NCBI GenBank assembly: GCA_017303505.1
Contig: JAFLCP010000001.1
Location: 62,001 to 126,000 of the forward strand
Origin: Planctomycetota bacterium
GTDB lineage: Bacteria; Planctomycetota; Planctomycetia; Pirellulales; Pirellulaceae
Length of the DNA: 64,000 bases
Direction of reading: 5' to 3'
The translations under genes and the position numbers were made by a program. The notes beneath the pieces are model-generated. The model had not been told where the DNA came from. It was given only the letters and a program-made list of their open reading frames with translations, and did not search any database. Positions 1,701 to 18,858 of this stretch are shown here, piece by piece (position 1 is the first letter of the stretch; each line of letters starts with the position of its first letter).

Positions 1701-1773
<73 letters not shown>

Positions 1774-12149: not shown

Positions 12150-13319
12150 TTAGCAAAAACTTGAGGCAGGTGATGGACGACCGAAGTGATAACCTTGTGC
12201 TAAAGCGAATCCGAGTTGACGGCATACTTCCGCTTCACTTTCGGTTTCAATGCCCTCAGCGAGTGGAGTAATGCCCAGGTCGAGGGTTACGCCAACCAGC
12301 GAATGCACCAGTTTTTGGCGTTCAGGCCCTGCTTGATCAATACCGCGGATCAATGACATATCGAACTTGAGATAGTCGGGGCGAGCTTCGGTCAATTCGG
12401 CTAAGCGAGTTTGACCTGCACCGAAATCATCGAAAGCTAGTTCGACTCGGAGGTCGCGCAGACGTTCTTTGAGTTCTCGCATCTGTTTCGCATCGCTGAT
12501 CGCTGCTTCGTGGATTTCCAAGACCAACTGAGTTTGCGAAGTGAGTTGTCGAGCCATGATCATGGAATTCAGCAAGCCTTCGCGTTGCAATTCCAATGGA
12601 TGTGTATTGACGAATACTTTCGGTGAACCGGGTAGCGTGGTTGCTTCGCGGATACCTTCCCAGCGAAGCATGCGGGACAATTCGACTTCCATATTCAAGC
12701 GGCTAGCAATGTCAAACATCGCACCGCAGCTTTCCAAACCGATCACTTTACTACGGGCCAGGACTTCGTATCCCAGCAATGAGCCATTCACCAAATCGAT
12801 GATAGGCTGGAAGTGAGGAATCACCAGCCGTTGCTCCATGAAGCGATCGAATTGAACAAGGGCTAGAGCTTGATCGGATACGTTTCCTTGAACTGTGCTG
12901 GCGGCTGCGCGACGATGATTTCGACGCACGCGGAACGCGACTTCAGCGAACTGAATCAGGTCTTCTTCTTGAACCTGAACTTCGCCGACCAAGCGTTTTC
13001 CGTTCACGAAGGTCCCGTTGGTGCTTCCCAACTCTGTCAGCCACAATTCTTCATTGCGCATATCGAATCGCGCATGTTGACCAGAAACGGTTGGATGGGA
13101 TAACAACAAATCACAACCTGGCTTACGACCAACGCGAACCGTGGGTGGACTGAGAGAATAATTTTGAGCGCTATCGGTTCCACTCAATGACCCACTCAAC
13201 ATCCAAACCACCGCATTGCTGGTAGTTAGCTGACCTCCACCAGACGGCCAAGACACGGAATCATATTCCGACGACATCGGCTGAATGGAAAGTGGAGCGA
13301 CTGATGGAGCAACGGCCAT
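12150..13319 (-). CDS. FHA domain - EAL (c-di-GMP phosphodiesterase) protein
   Basis: Residues about 45-135 form an FHA phosphothreonine-binding domain: VGRKPGCD with R65, the HPTVSGQHA segment and GSTNGT at 98-103. Residues about 155-389 form an EAL domain in which the main metal and catalytic positions are kept: E185 (written EVL), N238, E268 (LEIHE), D297-D298 (FDDFGAG), K318, E355 (AEGIE) and Q375 (AQGYHFGRP). It may therefore hydrolyse cyclic di-GMP to pGpG. No membrane segment or signal peptide is seen, so it should be cytoplasmic. It is divergent from an AAA ATPase and a Ser/Thr kinase-tubulin fusion, and the FHA domain could dock on proteins phosphorylated by that kinase; this partnership is inferred from position. 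Confidence 0.88.
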   Translation of the reverse strand: MAVAPSVAPLSIQPMSSEYDSVSWPSGGGQLTTSNAVVWMLSGSLSGTDSAQNYSLSPPTVRVGRKPGCDLLLSHPTVSGQHARFDMRNEELWLTELGSTNGTFVNGKRLVGEVQVQEEDLIQFAEVAFRVRRNHRRAAASTVQGNVSDQALALVQFDRFMEQRLVIPHFQPIIDLVNGSLLGYEVLARSKVIGLESCGAMFDIASRLNMEVELSRMLRWEGIREATTLPGSPKVFVNTHPLELQREGLLNSMIMARQLTSQTQLVLEIHEAAISDAKQMRELKERLRDLRVELAFDDFGAGQTRLAELTEARPDYLKFDMSLIRGIDQAGPERQKLVHSLVGVTLDLGITPLAEGIETESEAEVCRQLGFALAQGYHFGRPSPASSFC

Positions 13320-13752
13320 GTTTCACCAATGAATATTAACGAAGCTGCGTATTTACTGTGTTGACGAGGAGAGACAAGCTACCCCTGTGGCATATTTCAG
13401 CCACCGAACCATAGTTTTCATTTAGAGAGAAGGCTTGTCCTGAGATGGATTCGCGAAACAAAATCAGCTACGAAAACAAAGAAGGTTACTGGTTGTACCG
13501 ATTGTTCCATCCAGACGTGGAATGACTTCCTGCGAGATGTCTTAGTTGTTGTGAGCAGTCAGAGAGTTAGAAACAACGCAACCGGTACGTTTTGCCAAAA
13601 CAATCGCTTTATTTCCATTTTTTTTCCTAGGCGCATCAAATCGTTAGCTACATTTCGTTGATGGTTTTTGCAAAGTAGCCCCATAAGTGGGAGCACGTAA
13701 TGACTGCTTTTGCAAACCGAACCTTGAGAAATGAGCTTAGGATTACGGAACT
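13320..13752. other. 433-bp divergent intergenic region
   Basis: This region separates the FHA-EAL gene from the AAA ATPase gene and must contain both promoters. It is AT-rich, with a run of T at about 13617-13626. I found no clear -35/-10 pair, no convincing palindrome and no small gene; a 54-codon open frame from 13700 overlaps the ATPase in another frame and was not accepted. Confidence 0.4.
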
Positions 13753-15240
13753 ATGGCAGCACAGGAAACGATGGTTTCGAGCGGCAGCAAGATTACGCCC
13801 AGCATGTTTGATGAAGCATTCTGGCCAGCGGAGCCGCGCACTATCGAAGAAACGGGCCTAACGGATTCATTGATTGAATCGTTAGTTTGCCAGGTCTTGC
13901 AACTTTCGGGCACCGCCTCGGGCCGGCGTATTGCCGAACGAGTTGGCTTACCGTTTGCGATCATCGAGCAAATGTTGGGGACACTTCGTACGCGTCAATT
14001 GGTTGTGCATGCCCGCCCAGCTGCGTTCAACGATTATTACTACAGCCTGACCGAAAATGGACGCGCCCGCGCGCAACAACTACAAAAGACATCGACTTAC
14101 TCTGGTCCGGCTCCTGTTCCGTTAGCGGAATACTTGGTATCCGTCGAGGCTCAAGGCAAGAACTTTAGCCCCATTCGTCGGCCACATCTGGTCGAAGCCT
14201 TGAAAGAGATTACCTACGAAGAATCTTGGCTTGATTTCATTGGTCCAGCGATCAATAGCGGGCGCGGCATCTTCTTGTATGGCTCGCCTGGAAACGGAAA
14301 AACCACTTTAGCCAAATGCCTCACAGCGGCTCAAGGACAAAGTGTTTGGATTCCACACGCCGTCATTGATGATGGAATGATCATCAAGTTGTTTGATCAA
14401 TCCGTACACCAAAAAGTGTCGAACAACAAAGATAGTGTCTTGATGGATGCATCAAGCTACGATCAACGTTGGGTCCGCATCAAACGTCCTACCGTGGTCG
14501 TAGGGGGCGAATTGACGATGGACAATCTTGAAATTCGACATGATCCTCGCAGCAATACCTGCGAAGCTCCATTGCAGATGAAGAGCAATTGCGGTTGTTT
14601 GTTGATCGACGACTTTGGTCGCCAGAGAATTGCACCATCGGAATTATTGAACCGTTGGATCGTTCCGCTGGAAAACCGCATCGACTATCTCACTCTGCCT
14701 ACGGGTAAGAAAATTTGCGTACCGTTCGAACAGACCATTCTCTTCTCAACCAACTTGCAACCTGAAGCGTTGGTCGATGAAGCATTTATGCGCCGCGTAC
14801 CATTTAAGATTGAAATTGGTGATCCAAGCGAAAATGAGTTCCGCACGTTGATGCGACGGTGCTGCGAAGAACTTGGATTTCAATGGCGACCACGAGCCTT
14901 TGATTATCTTGTGCACAAGCATTATCGCAGCGTTGGACGACCTTTCCGTCGATGCCATGCTCGCGATTTGATCCACCAAATCAAAGCCTTTTGTGCTTAT
15001 ACCGGTGGTCCACTCGAGCTACGTGAAGAGTACCTGGATCTTGCCTGTCGCAATTATTTTGGTTCGTCCACAGCAAACCTCCCGGCTGTACCACCTCAAG
15101 CAGCAGTCAACAACGCCGCTGGTCCGCAGACGGTTATGTCCCGTACCATGCCGACATCGGCCGCTAATGATGGGAACTATCAGCGTACCATGGTTGTGAC
15201 GCCTACGAACCCGCCAGCCCCACCAGTCGTCAACGCATAG
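13753..15240 (+). CDS. AAA-type ATPase with N-terminal winged-helix-like domain
   Basis: Residues about 35-115 look like a winged helix (SGRRIAERVGLPFAIIEQML, then a wing with YYYSLTENGRARA). The ATPase core has Walker A GSPGNGKTT at 177-185, Walker B LLIDD at 283-287 and a sensor-1 region FSTNLQP. The C-terminal lid region continues to about residue 435, and a low-complexity Ala/Pro/Thr tail ends the protein. No transmembrane segment is visible. The next gene, the kinase-tubulin fusion, starts 31 bp downstream on the same strand, so the two are very likely cotranscribed. AAA proteins remodel or load other proteins, so a role in assembling or disassembling the tubulin-like partner is reasonable but not shown. 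I do not recognise a named family. Confidence 0.82.
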   Translation: MAAQETMVSSGSKITPSMFDEAFWPAEPRTIEETGLTDSLIESLVCQVLQLSGTASGRRIAERVGLPFAIIEQMLGTLRTRQLVVHARPAAFNDYYYSLTENGRARAQQLQKTSTYSGPAPVPLAEYLVSVEAQGKNFSPIRRPHLVEALKEITYEESWLDFIGPAINSGRGIFLYGSPGNGKTTLAKCLTAAQGQSVWIPHAVIDDGMIIKLFDQSVHQKVSNNKDSVLMDASSYDQRWVRIKRPTVVVGGELTMDNLEIRHDPRSNTCEAPLQMKSNCGCLLIDDFGRQRIAPSELLNRWIVPLENRIDYLTLPTGKKICVPFEQTILFSTNLQPEALVDEAFMRRVPFKIEIGDPSENEFRTLMRRCCEELGFQWRPRAFDYLVHKHYRSVGRPFRRCHARDLIHQIKAFCAYTGGPLELREEYLDLACRNYFGSSTANLPAVPPQAAVNNAAGPQTVMSRTMPTSAANDGNYQRTMVVTPTNPPAPPVVNA

Positions 15241-15271
15241 GATCTACTCACTCTGAGGTAAGAAGCTCACT

Positions 15272-18200
15272 ATGACAACCACCCTTGAAATTCATCCAGA
15301 TGTGGAGATCCTTCCAGGCTACCGCTTGATCCGCAAGATTGGATCGGGTGGCTATGGTGAGGTCTGGTTGTGCGATGCGCCCGGTGGTCTCAAAAAGGCC
15401 GTCAAAATTGTGTACGGCACGCTCGACGAAGAACGAGCGTCTTCCGAAATGCGATCACTGCAACGCATTCGAGAAGTGAAACACCCTTTCATTCTTTCGC
15501 TCGAACGCATCGAAGTGATCGATGGCCATTTGATGATCGTGACGGAGTTAGCTGAAAGTAGTCTGTACGATCAGTTTCAAGCGTATTGCCTTCAGGGAAT
15601 GAACGGTATTCCGCGAGATCGCTTGATCGGTTACCTGCGCGATACGGCGGAAGCCTTAGACTTCCTCAGCCTCAAGCACGACTTGCAACATTTGGACGTC
15701 AAGCCAGGTAACCTTTTGTTGGTCGCCGACCGTGTCAAGTTGGCTGACTTCGGCGTGGTGAAGAGCCTATCAGAAAAGCAACATTCATGTATTGGTGGGC
15801 TCACTCCATCGTATGCTGCACCAGAAATGTTCGATGGCCGCGCTGGTCGCCATAGCGATCAATATAGTTTGGCCATCATGTATTATGAGTTGCTCACGGG
15901 TCGGTTGCCGTTTGATGGCTCATCGATGGCGCAGCTGGCCACTCAACACTTGCACCATAAGCCCAACTTAGAATTGATCCCCGATGCAGAACAAGCCATT
16001 CTGCACCGTGCCCTATCAAAGGATCCTTCGCAGCGATTTCCAAGCTGCAGCGAGTTCATTGATAAGCTCGCGCATGCAGATCAGACCTTTGGATCAAGTG
16101 AAACGACGTCTCGAACAACTAGCGATTCTGAGAATACGCCTCGAGCTTTTGCACCCAAACGTCGTTTAATTGCCCGTGGCAGCACCAATGTCGATCATAA
16201 ACAATCGACGGTTCTTGTCCAGAAAAAGCCGGTCAAAAATTCCCCCGCTCTCCCCGACTCAGTGATCGGTACATGGCGACAGTCACCAAGTTTGTTCATT
16301 GGACTCGGCGGCGTCGGCTGCCAAGTTTTAGCGCAGCTTCGCTCCGTCTTTCTTGAATCGGATGCTCCTACCGATCATACGCATTGGCTTTTGATTGACA
16401 CCAGCAGTGACGGCCTAAAGGCTGGCTCTGAAAATCCTGATATCGCCTTTGACGATCACGAGAAACTACTGATTCCGTTGCGGGATGCGCACTACTATCG
16501 CGAAACCAAAACAGATACCTTCGAAACGATCAGTCGACGTTGGCTCTACAATATTCCGCGGAGCCAGAACACCGGCGGCGCACGTCCTTTAGGGCAAGTT
16601 GCACTGCTCGACCATCAATCCTCCATTGCCGCTGCACTCGCTGAATCTCTCGATTATTTGTTGCAATATCAACAAACTGCCCATTCTGATGACGATGAAG
16701 GAAAAAGCAATCACTCCAGAAAATTGCGAATTTATCTGGTAACCTCGGCCCATGGTGGTACGGGTAGCGCCATTTTCTGTGACATCGGCTTCGCTCTGCG
16801 AAATCTGCTCGAAGAACTCAAGATTACTGATTATCAAATTTTGGGAATCGTCTCCGCAGCAGCATCTTCGTCAGACCCCAAAGAACTGATTCCCAGTGCT
16901 GCGTCCGTCGCATTTTTCCGTGAACTCAAACACTACTTCGACACCAACAATGAATATTACGGCTTAACTCAAAAGCCCTTTTACGGAAGCCCAGAAGCAG
17001 TCGCCGATCGTAAGCCGCCTGTCGATCAAGTGTACTGTTTCGCCAACGATAGACTTTCGTCGAGAGATGCATTGGCAGAGACTATTCATCAAATGGCTCA
17101 ATTGATGATTGTCGATAGCAGTACCAATATTGGTCGTGCGCTGGACATTTCGCGCAACACTCCACCGACTGGCAAAACAAATTCTCCCACTCCCTGGCTG
17201 CGAACGATTTCGTTCCATCCATGTAGCGTCGATTTCAAAAATCGATTATCGGACATCGTGCAAAGCTGTATCGCGGACTATTGTCGCAAGTGGTTCCCGC
17301 TGGGCTTACGTTCCGACAGCAATGGCAAGAACACGATCAGTTTTGAAAAAGATCCGACTCGAACGACAGGTGTCATTTCCGAATCGGAAGAATACCTTAC
17401 CGAGTTGTCGCATAATCTCGAACAACTCCTGGCCGACCTGCGACTTTCAGGTGAAGCTTGGTTACATAATTGCAGCAATTCGATTCGTGCGTTATACCCT
17501 CGCAGCCGCAATCCATTTGAAGAGCCCATTGCGCCGATTGTCGAATCATTGTTTCGAACGATGATCGATGGCTGCAGCACCCGCAGCCGCCTGAGCTCCA
17601 TGCCTTGCAAGATCAACCTTGGCTTGCTGACTGGCTTGCACATTCAAGCCAAGAAGTTGGAAGAGATGTTGCGACGTTCCAAGCAACGCCATGAACAGGA
17701 CTTGGATGCGTTAAAGCTTTTGGATACGGAAAATGATGCCTCCAAGAAAAAGGGCATTCAAGCCGAACAAGAAGTATCTCAGTCTCAGCTTGTCGATGTA
17801 AGTCGCAAACTGCAATTGACCATTCTGCGATACGATGCGTCGATTCGTATTCTTGAGTCTTTGATTCAAAAGCTGGAAGAGCCACTTCAGCAAGGGCGTC
17901 GACGCATGGGCAAGCTGCATCGATCTTGGTCTAGCTGGCCTAGCTTATTGCCAGAACAAGGAGCAGGCTCGCTACTTGAGGATCTGGAATCCGATGCGCT
18001 CGGTATGAAGCTGGCTCCGTTCGTTGATGAAATTCGCCGGTATGTGTACTCTGCCCTACGCAGCGTCTCCACACACGTCGTTCTCGGTGATAAAGAAGCG
18101 GAGCAAATCTCCGGTGCATCAGAAGGAGCCGCGTTGGTCAAGCTGTTGGAATTTGATCCTGATTTAGCGTTTGACTTTTCGAAGATCCTCTTCGCAATGG

Positions 18201-18604
18201 AAAACCTGCTCAAGAAAGATCATCCCGATTTGATCGACGGCCAATTGGAACAAATGTGGTTCCAACATCAGGTCGGACAAGCAGCGCGTCAAATCATCGA
18301 TGAGAAATCAAGCAAGTTGGGCGATTGTGGTGGAATGCGTCGCTTGATCTTGGCAGCCCCCGTATCACAAAGCTGCGTATTAGCTCGCGGTAGCTGGCGC
18401 GATCAAATGGAACTACCCATCTCCATCGTGAGTGCCCCGGTTGAAGAAAAATTATTGGGTGCCGAACTCGAACAACTCGACTTACCTGAGATTTGCGTTC
18501 GCATGTGGGGGCATTCCGCCGAACTGAACTCATTGGTGGATCGCATGTACTCGCGAACCGATACCGAATGGGCTCCGTTGCCCCCCCCAGCCCCAGCCCA
18601 ATAA
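15272..18604 (+). CDS. Ser/Thr protein kinase fused to a tubulin/FtsZ-like domain
   Basis: Residues about 15-270 form a complete Hanks-type kinase: glycine loop GSGGYGEV (24-31), K45 in AVKIV, HLDVKPGN (H140, D142, K144, N147), DFG with D159, and an APE motif. After a linker the chain enters a tubulin-like fold: FIGLGGVGCQVL with G344 as first glycine of the loop, and the tubulin signature SAHGGTGSA with GGTGSA at 495-500. Such a domain binds GTP and can polymerise. A charged coiled coil follows (about 790-880), then a C-terminal region ending in a proline-rich tail. The length of 1110 residues suits fusion of a kinase with the large bacterial tubulin-like family (Pfam calls it Tubulin like). 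A GAGGTAAGAAG box precedes the ATG. It is cytoplasmic and follows the AAA ATPase gene by 31 bp. Confidence 0.85.
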   Translation: MTTTLEIHPDVEILPGYRLIRKIGSGGYGEVWLCDAPGGLKKAVKIVYGTLDEERASSEMRSLQRIREVKHPFILSLERIEVIDGHLMIVTELAESSLYDQFQAYCLQGMNGIPRDRLIGYLRDTAEALDFLSLKHDLQHLDVKPGNLLLVADRVKLADFGVVKSLSEKQHSCIGGLTPSYAAPEMFDGRAGRHSDQYSLAIMYYELLTGRLPFDGSSMAQLATQHLHHKPNLELIPDAEQAILHRALSKDPSQRFPSCSEFIDKLAHADQTFGSSETTSRTTSDSENTPRAFAPKRRLIARGSTNVDHKQSTVLVQKKPVKNSPALPDSVIGTWRQSPSLFIGLGGVGCQVLAQLRSVFLESDAPTDHTHWLLIDTSSDGLKAGSENPDIAFDDHEKLLIPLRDAHYYRETKTDTFETISRRWLYNIPRSQNTGGARPLGQVALLDHQSSIAAALAESLDYLLQYQQTAHSDDDEGKSNHSRKLRIYLVTSAHGGTGSAIFCDIGFALRNLLEELKITDYQILGIVSAAASSSDPKELIPSAASVAFFRELKHYFDTNNEYYGLTQKPFYGSPEAVADRKPPVDQVYCFANDRLSSRDALAETIHQMAQLMIVDSSTNIGRALDISRNTPPTGKTNSPTPWLRTISFHPCSVDFKNRLSDIVQSCIADYCRKWFPLGLRSDSNGKNTISFEKDPTRTTGVISESEEYLTELSHNLEQLLADLRLSGEAWLHNCSNSIRALYPRSRNPFEEPIAPIVESLFRTMIDGCSTRSRLSSMPCKINLGLLTGLHIQAKKLEEMLRRSKQRHEQDLDALKLLDTENDASKKKGIQAEQEVSQSQLVDVSRKLQLTILRYDASIRILESLIQKLEEPLQQGRRRMGKLHRSWSSWPSLLPEQGAGSLLEDLESDALGMKLAPFVDEIRRYVYSALRSVSTHVVLGDKEAEQISGASEGAALVKLLEFDPDLAFDFSKILFAMENLLKKDHPDLIDGQLEQMWFQHQVGQAARQIIDEKSSKLGDCGGMRRLILAAPVSQSCVLARGSWRDQMELPISIVSAPVEEKLLGAELEQLDLPEICVRMWGHSAELNSLVDRMYSRTDTEWAPLPPPAPAQ

Positions 18605-18771: not shown

Positions 18772-18858
18772 GGCCGGGTGGCGGAATAGGCAGACGCACA
18801 GGACTTAAAATCCTGTGACCCGTTAAGGGTCGTACGGGTTCGACCCCCGTCCCGGCTA
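18772..18858 (+). tRNA. tRNA-Leu (UAA)
   Basis: A class II tRNA of 87 bases with a long variable arm (TGACCCGTTAAGGGTCG), an anticodon loop ACTTAAAAT giving UAA, and a T arm GGGTTCGACCC. The acceptor is GGCCGGG against CCCGGCT with discriminator A73, giving a G1-U72 first pair as in the other tRNA of the window. U8 is in place and no CCA is encoded. Its 3' end is 5 bp from the stop of the convergent gene. Confidence 0.95.

Follow-up and report, generated by a model that had tools for sequence, protein, structure and literature searches.

A 64,000-nucleotide stretch of a Pirellulaceae genome (contig JAFLCP010000001.1 of assembly GCA_017303505.1), hereafter the window, on whose positions all feature coordinates are given, carries a gene in which a Ser/Thr protein kinase is fused to a tubulin-like protein. 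It lies beside genes for an AAA+ ATPase and for a protein with an FHA and an EAL domain, and our preferred reading, to which we give a probability of about 0.45, is that the three genes form a signalling or scaffold module of the Pirellulales, with the AAA+ protein dedicated to the fusion and cyclic di-GMP (c-di-GMP) as its output. The fusion was reported in four Planctomycetes by Makarova and Koonin in 2010 (PMC2875224) and was also already known from PMC9871819. Relative to the open-licence papers, the partner set, the strict co-occurrence of the ATPase paralogue, the predicted complete tubulin fold and a C-terminal motif appear to be new: the 2010 main text mentions neither FHA nor EAL and refers to AAA proteins for chelatases only, and a search of the same kind of literature returned nothing on FHA-EAL proteins in planctomycetes. 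With its partners, which are unreported in the papers found, what has been an orphan since 2010 becomes a small, defined and testable module, joining three things that are rarely combined, namely a tubulin-family protein, Ser/Thr phosphorylation and c-di-GMP.

Conservation in 115 distinct loci means that the fusion is not a chance frame. The kinase and tubulin motifs that an earlier note on this DNA had read in the 1110-residue frame are all present, with the kinase G-loop starting at residue 24, HLDVKPGN at 140-147, DFG at 159-161 and APE further on, and the tubulin loops T1 (GLGGVG) at 344-349 and T4 (GGTGSA) at 495-500. Pfam matches both Pkinase (Table 1) and Tubulin_2 (PF13809; residues 341-610, scoring 82 bits where the cut-off is 27), and on this profile evidence the fusion is a member of the FtsZ-like-1 family. 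It is the sole Tubulin_2 gene of its genome, in which PF00091, the FtsZ/tubulin profile, has no match anywhere. The catalytic residues of the kinase (Lys, Asp, DFG and APE) are retained in 32 to 34 of 34 homologues, HLD in place of HRD in the catalytic loop being an unusual feature for a Hanks-type kinase. While the kinase is strongly conserved among homologues, the tubulin part is far more variable, at 17-24% identity to the window copy.

The third gene was recognised by comparison of 37 neighbourhoods taken from relatives, and 80 further loci, almost all with a Planctomycetes label, came from searching GTDB genomes with the tubulin part. With each distinct fusion protein entered once, and taking loci with more than 5 kb upstream and more than 4 kb downstream (n = 72), an AAA gene is found near the fusion in 61, an FHA-EAL gene in 66, and neither in just 1. 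The earlier note had proposed a two-gene system of fusion and AAA protein: the AAA frame that it placed just upstream is confirmed in the window and the conserved linkage bears the pairing out, but the FHA-EAL partner was missed, and this changes the likely biology. AAA and fusion genes are separated by a median of 35 bp (31 bp in the window). The commonest order, a divergent FHA-EAL gene followed by AAA-fusion, accounts for 49 loci. A divergent receiver (REC)-GGDEF gene precedes FHA-EAL-fusion in 16, AAA-fusion stands alone in 13, of which several lie on truncated contigs, and the remaining common orders are AAA-fusion-FHA-EAL (10 loci) and AAA, REC-GGDEF, FHA-EAL, fusion (9 loci). One genome (G059) holds two kinase-tubulin modules, L037 and L066, one in each arrangement, a separate AAA and FHA-EAL pair accompanying either.

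Co-occurrence was counted across 147 Pirellulales genomes, with p-values that ignore kinship. The fusion is present in 61 genomes belonging to 35 of 83 genera, and the fusion-linked ATPase paralogue (AAA1) and FHA-EAL are each present in 58. AAA1 occurs in 58 of the 61 fusion genomes and in none of the 86 others (p 8e-38), tracking the fusion even where it lies unlinked elsewhere in the genome; the three fusion genomes that lack it hold a 137-residue fusion fragment, an AAA gene cut at a contig end and a fusion on a 4.6-kb contig. FHA-EAL occurs in 53 of 61 fusion genomes against 5 of 86 others (p 2e-25), and in five of the eight apparent absences a diverged or truncated copy adjoins the fusion. 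Outside the Pirellulales any Tubulin_2 protein is rare (11 of 196 genomes of the phylum).

Planctomycetes in general have been reported to have lost ftsZ (PMC10632474), and the earlier note drew attention to a tubulin-like protein in such a background. The lack of a PF00091 protein in the source genome fits that link, as would the complete predicted tubulin fold described below, and together they invite the idea of a tubulin-like substitute for FtsZ in division. A general replacement is contradicted by the distribution just given, in which 86 of the 147 Pirellulales manage without the fusion, and FtsZ-like-1 proteins usually coexist with FtsZ elsewhere. Most planctomycetes have neither FtsZ nor the module, which makes a division role very unlikely, and we reject it on distribution. 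The FHA-EAL and AAA partners favour a filament or scaffold controlled by phosphorylation and second messenger over a division machine.

The homologous loci hold no conserved cluster with a vWA neighbour, the neighbours in the window being AAA and FHA-EAL. This bears on the membrane-remodelling machine that Makarova and Koonin proposed for the whole FtsZ-like-1 family, arguing from a context of vWA, GTPase, OmpA and membrane proteins, and which the family membership of the fusion would extend to our locus. Here, however, AAA and FHA-EAL replace the vWA partner of the typical operons, none of the three core proteins has a transmembrane-like stretch (maximum 19-residue hydropathy 1.34), and the planctomycete FtsZ-like-1 genes that are linked to vWA-PKD proteins constitute a separate, kinase-less type. 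We consider a membrane machine improbable for this locus, and in our best explanation the three-gene module is, by prediction, cytosolic. The kinase-less type was seen in the two cases read from outside the Pirellulales (L190, 6687-12119; L193, 1410-7780) and likewise in one inside the order (L043, 6673-12322), in each of which the gene directly adjoins that of a vWA protein with PKD repeats, the classic FtsZ-like-1 arrangement; the make-up of this partner suggests an extracellular or periplasmic location. A vWA and Tubulin_2 pair on plasmid pMESIL01 of Allomeiothermus silvanus (L214, 6414-10751) lies by brxL, a RecQ-type helicase gene and a WYL-domain gene in a BREX-like region, possibly a further, defence-linked use of the family.

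An AlphaFold2 model of fusion residues 313-1110, built with 69 homologues, has a mean predicted local distance difference test score (pLDDT) of 80.7. Among solved structures its best match is CetZ (3zid; Z 26.4, 295 residues, root mean square deviation 3.1 Å), followed by tubulins and FtsZ at Z 21-22, and Foldseek gave E 1e-6; a PDB sequence search with the same part returned mainly helical-bundle noise and one weak CetZ match. The fold match spans model residues 25 to 775, with only about 295 residues aligned, and thus includes strands and helices at the extreme C-terminus. The model accordingly predicts a complete tubulin fold with both domains, interrupted by a helical insert of some 340 residues. 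The insert appears to lie within the second domain, after the counterpart of H9 and before that of S8, a placement derived from the succession of predicted secondary-structure elements and not from a residue-level superposition. The tubulin identity on which the earlier note had hung its proposal is upheld by the Tubulin_2 score and by the predicted fold of residues 330-1110. As expected of FtsZ-like-1 proteins, a long helical or coiled-coil region followed by a C-terminal domain is present in the model. The 2010 analysis detected neither T6-H7 nor the C-terminal domain in this family, and described the C-terminal region as mostly helical and without detected similarity to known tubulin C-terminal domains (PMC2875224); at least where these members are concerned, the predicted fold revises the view of a family whose second domain cannot be recognised. 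The nucleotide loops T1 and T4 are conserved, with G346 and G495 in 70 of 70 sequences, G496 in 69 and G498 in 61, and the T4 loop reads GGTGSG in most homologues where the window copy has GGTGSA.

Close to the end of the protein the consensus R-[LIV]-H-T-R-x-D-[IV]-x-W is found within the last 160 residues of 95 of 108 distinct homologues, where its frequency in the rest of the proteins would predict 0.34. It was not seen in the kinase-less FtsZ-like-1 proteins that were read. A diverged kinase-tubulin fusion (L048, 8528-11881) has neither AAA nor FHA-EAL nearby, yet carries the motif as RFHTRTDVNW.

The AAA+ protein was modelled with a mean pLDDT of 84.7 as a helical or winged front, much as the earlier note had supposed, followed by an AAA+ module in which the Walker A and Walker B sequences (Table 1) are invariant among 55 homologues. 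Its closest solved folds are the uncharacterised Pyrococcus protein 8p49, archaeal Lon, NorQ/CbbQ, Clp and RuvB, in a narrow range of Z (15-17 for 8p49, Lon and NorQ/CbbQ), and because these matches are tied no family can be assigned from the fold. The best PDB sequence match is spastin (E 9e-8), over about 60 residues around the P-loop; the front is modelled as winged-helix-like, an MIT-type N-terminus being a mark of spastin and katanin, and the fold search is compatible with this severing family as well. The role of loader or severing factor that the earlier note gave to the AAA protein is conjectural. In a tree the fusion-linked AAA1 copies are monophyletic (support 100/99). A second paralogue, AAA2, is found in nearly all relatives regardless of the fusion, and no conserved neighbourhood was found around it in these genomes; the copy at L069 (2334-4136; G000:C138) represents this paralogue, which usually has no conserved neighbours.

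Both kinase and AAA protein match PADLOC models (MAD6 and PD-T4-6; TRIP13 and IetA), as an anti-phage defence module would. The kinase matches amount to general Hanks-kinase similarity, the AAA matches are short P-loop stretches with E of 1e-7 or weaker, and the scores fall far below the NCBIfam cut-offs (26 bits against 510 for the IetA-type model, 87 against 460 for MAD6). Conserved partners, moreover, accompany the module across dozens of Pirellulales genera, and we noticed no defence genes alongside the loci examined. On profile scores and neighbourhood we reject a defence system, which we regard as the least probable of the explanations.

The FHA domain retains its ligand-loop residues (G, R, S, H, S, T and N) in all linked copies, 60 from the window-type arrangement and 25 linked to REC-GGDEF, with a single T-to-S change. 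All eight EAL catalytic residues (E185, N238, E268, D297, D298, K318, E355 and Q375) are present in the window copy, which on these residues is a predicted c-di-GMP phosphodiesterase, and they are complete in 58 of the 60 copies of its arrangement. Phospho-reading is, as far as residues can tell, the constant feature of the module and c-di-GMP hydrolysis the variable one. Complete extra FHA-EAL copies elsewhere in the relatives also keep their catalytic residues intact. FHA-EAL relatives with complete EAL residues occur in four fusion-less genomes as well (L207, L208, L209 and L210, in G340, G333, G325 and G329), L208 having two copies near one another. In many relatives a fourth gene encodes a protein that Pfam resolves into receiver, GGDEF and CBS domains, and in most members its GGDEF motif is degenerate in the alignment.

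The mechanism that we infer builds on what is directly seen, namely the genes, their domains and intact residues, the predicted folds, the linkage and the co-occurrence. The tubulin part and its helical insert would build a polymer or scaffold with bound nucleotide that gathers the kinase into clusters, and the kinase would phosphorylate threonines of the fusion itself or of its partners. The FHA domain would then dock on these phospho-sites and so recruit the EAL domain, which would lower c-di-GMP locally at the scaffold, while in the clade with degenerate EAL this domain may act as a binding or adaptor part. An AAA+ hexamer would remodel or disassemble the assembly. As its output the module probably drives a c-di-GMP-dependent switch of cell surface or life style, between motile and attached, rather than cell division. 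By sequence, Flp/Tad pilus operons in Rhizobium, Burkholderia and Paraburkholderia also contain members of the AAA family, and the Tad protein RcpC occurs in each of 60 fusion genomes, compared with 56 of the 87 others, a comparison confounded by kinship; this co-presence hints at surface attachment, and kinship could also account for it. By eye, the copies of the AAA family at L073 and L081 are followed by a pilin-like and a CpaF-like gene, respectively. In its fullest form the proposal has a tubulin filament carrying its own kinase, an FHA domain by which a c-di-GMP phosphodiesterase is placed on that filament, and a dedicated AAA+ protein that dismantles it, so that a cytoskeleton sets local c-di-GMP and cell fate in budding bacteria that lack FtsZ; we offer this version as a speculation, rather unlikely to be right.

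Several observations weigh against the module as we read it. In an alignment of 70 sequences, and dependent on that alignment, no invariant acid stands between the predicted H7 and S7, where tubulins carry the catalytic T7 acid (NxDxxD/E): residue 625 is Asp in 36 of 70, and the invariant residue is an arginine, R628 (70/70). GTP hydrolysis of the usual kind by the fusion is therefore uncertain, and its polymerisation and GTPase activity are putative. These residues, together with the variability of the tubulin part relative to the kinase, would suit a static phospho-signalling scaffold in which the fold is kept and the GTP-driven polymer cycle lost, with kinase and FHA-EAL as the working unit and the AAA+ protein recycling complexes. 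Against such a scaffold stand the conserved T1 and T4 nucleotide loops and the presence in the fold of the second domain, through which known tubulins make their filament contacts; we judge it a minority possibility, ahead of a membrane machine. For the three-gene module with c-di-GMP output there is the further difficulty that the eight EAL residues are complete in only 1 of the 25 REC-GGDEF-linked copies and degenerate in the other 24, all with FHA intact, so that c-di-GMP hydrolysis is not a universal part of the module. Five genomes have FHA-EAL and no fusion, kinase substrate and FHA ligand are only putative within the mechanism, and the associations of the module with Tad and flagellin are weak and confounded. 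The T/S-R-x-D of the C-terminal motif was considered as an FHA ligand (pT-x-x-D) and rejected: the four Rhodopirellula-type loci with Ala in the motif have no linked FHA-EAL, but strongly matching FHA-EAL genes are kept elsewhere in those genomes, and the argument from co-loss therefore fails.

Table 1. Features of the kinase-tubulin locus, in window positions
Feature	Position	Strand	Basis
FHA-EAL protein (389 aa), the module's third core gene, transcribed away from the AAA gene	12150..13319	-	Pfam FHA E 3e-19, EAL E 4e-42; linked homologues
EAL domain (predicted c-di-GMP phosphodiesterase), residues 158-382	12174..12848	-	Pfam; eight catalytic residues
FHA domain (phospho-threonine reading), residues 61-124	12948..13139	-	Pfam; ligand-loop residues
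Intergenic region of the divergent FHA-EAL / AAA pair, 433 bp, presumably with both promoters	13320..13752	.	Gene positions
AAA+ ATPase, fusion-linked paralogue AAA1, 495 aa	13753..15240	+	AlphaFold, PDB fold matches, tree
N-terminal domain of the AAA protein, helical / winged-helix-like, residues 31-113	13843..14091	+	Predicted secondary structure; weak Pfam HTH_45, E 0.033
AAA+ module, residues ~147-437, Walker A GxPGNGK and Walker B region IDDFGRQ	14191..15063	+	Conserved columns, fold search
Kinase-tubulin fusion, 1110 aa	15272..18604	+	Open reading frame and Pfam
Ser/Thr kinase domain of non-RD type (HLD) with intact catalytic residues, at residues 17-256	15320..16039	+	Pfam E 7e-34; residue conservation
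Tubulin GTP-binding domain and start of second domain (predicted), residues ~338-674	16283..17293	+	Pfam Tubulin_2 E 5e-23; AlphaFold, fold search
Helical / coiled-coil insert, ~340 residues (~675-1014), insertion point inferred	17294..18313	+	Order of predicted elements; match range
C-terminal strands and helices predicted to complete the second tubulin domain, residues ~1015-1088	18314..18535	+	Fold match to model residue 775 = fusion residue 1087
C-terminal motif RMYSRTDTEW, residues 1091-1100	18542..18571	+	Conservation among distinct homologues

An Rfam scan of the window returned two tRNAs only, at 18772-18858 (+), 168 bp 3' of the kinase-tubulin gene, and at 1701-1773 (-), and no c-di-GMP riboswitch near the module genes or in the 433-bp intergenic region.

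Set beside known systems, the fusion shares with FtsZ-like-1 proteins the Tubulin_2 domain, the T1 and T4 loops, the long helical or coiled-coil region and a C-terminal domain. It differs in its partners, for the typical operons hold vWA (usual though not universal), GTPase or OmpA-like genes where we find AAA and FHA-EAL, at times with REC-GGDEF-CBS, and in a C-terminal region that is predicted to complete the tubulin second domain. With CetZ, FtsZ and tubulin (PDB 3zid, 4b46 and 2vxy) it has the predicted fold in common, but not the PF00091 match or a conserved T7 acid, and it adds a kinase and the long insert. The AAA proteins of Flp/Tad operons (Rhizobium etli RHE_RS25680, Burkholderia pyrrocinia L2Y90_RS34800) belong to the same family as AAA1, over about 84% of its length at 35-36% identity, whereas AAA1 itself falls in a separate monophyletic paralogue tied to the fusion. 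MoxR-type ATPases that work with a vWA partner (NorQ/CbbQ), archaeal Lon and 8p49 share the AAA+ fold; here a winged-helix-like front is added, no vWA partner was seen in the locus, and unrelated AAA+ families are tied as matches. Finally, c-di-GMP enzymes that combine FHA and EAL have both domains and the intact signature residues of the window protein, which differs from them in being tied to a kinase-tubulin gene and in belonging to a group where one clade has a degenerate EAL domain.

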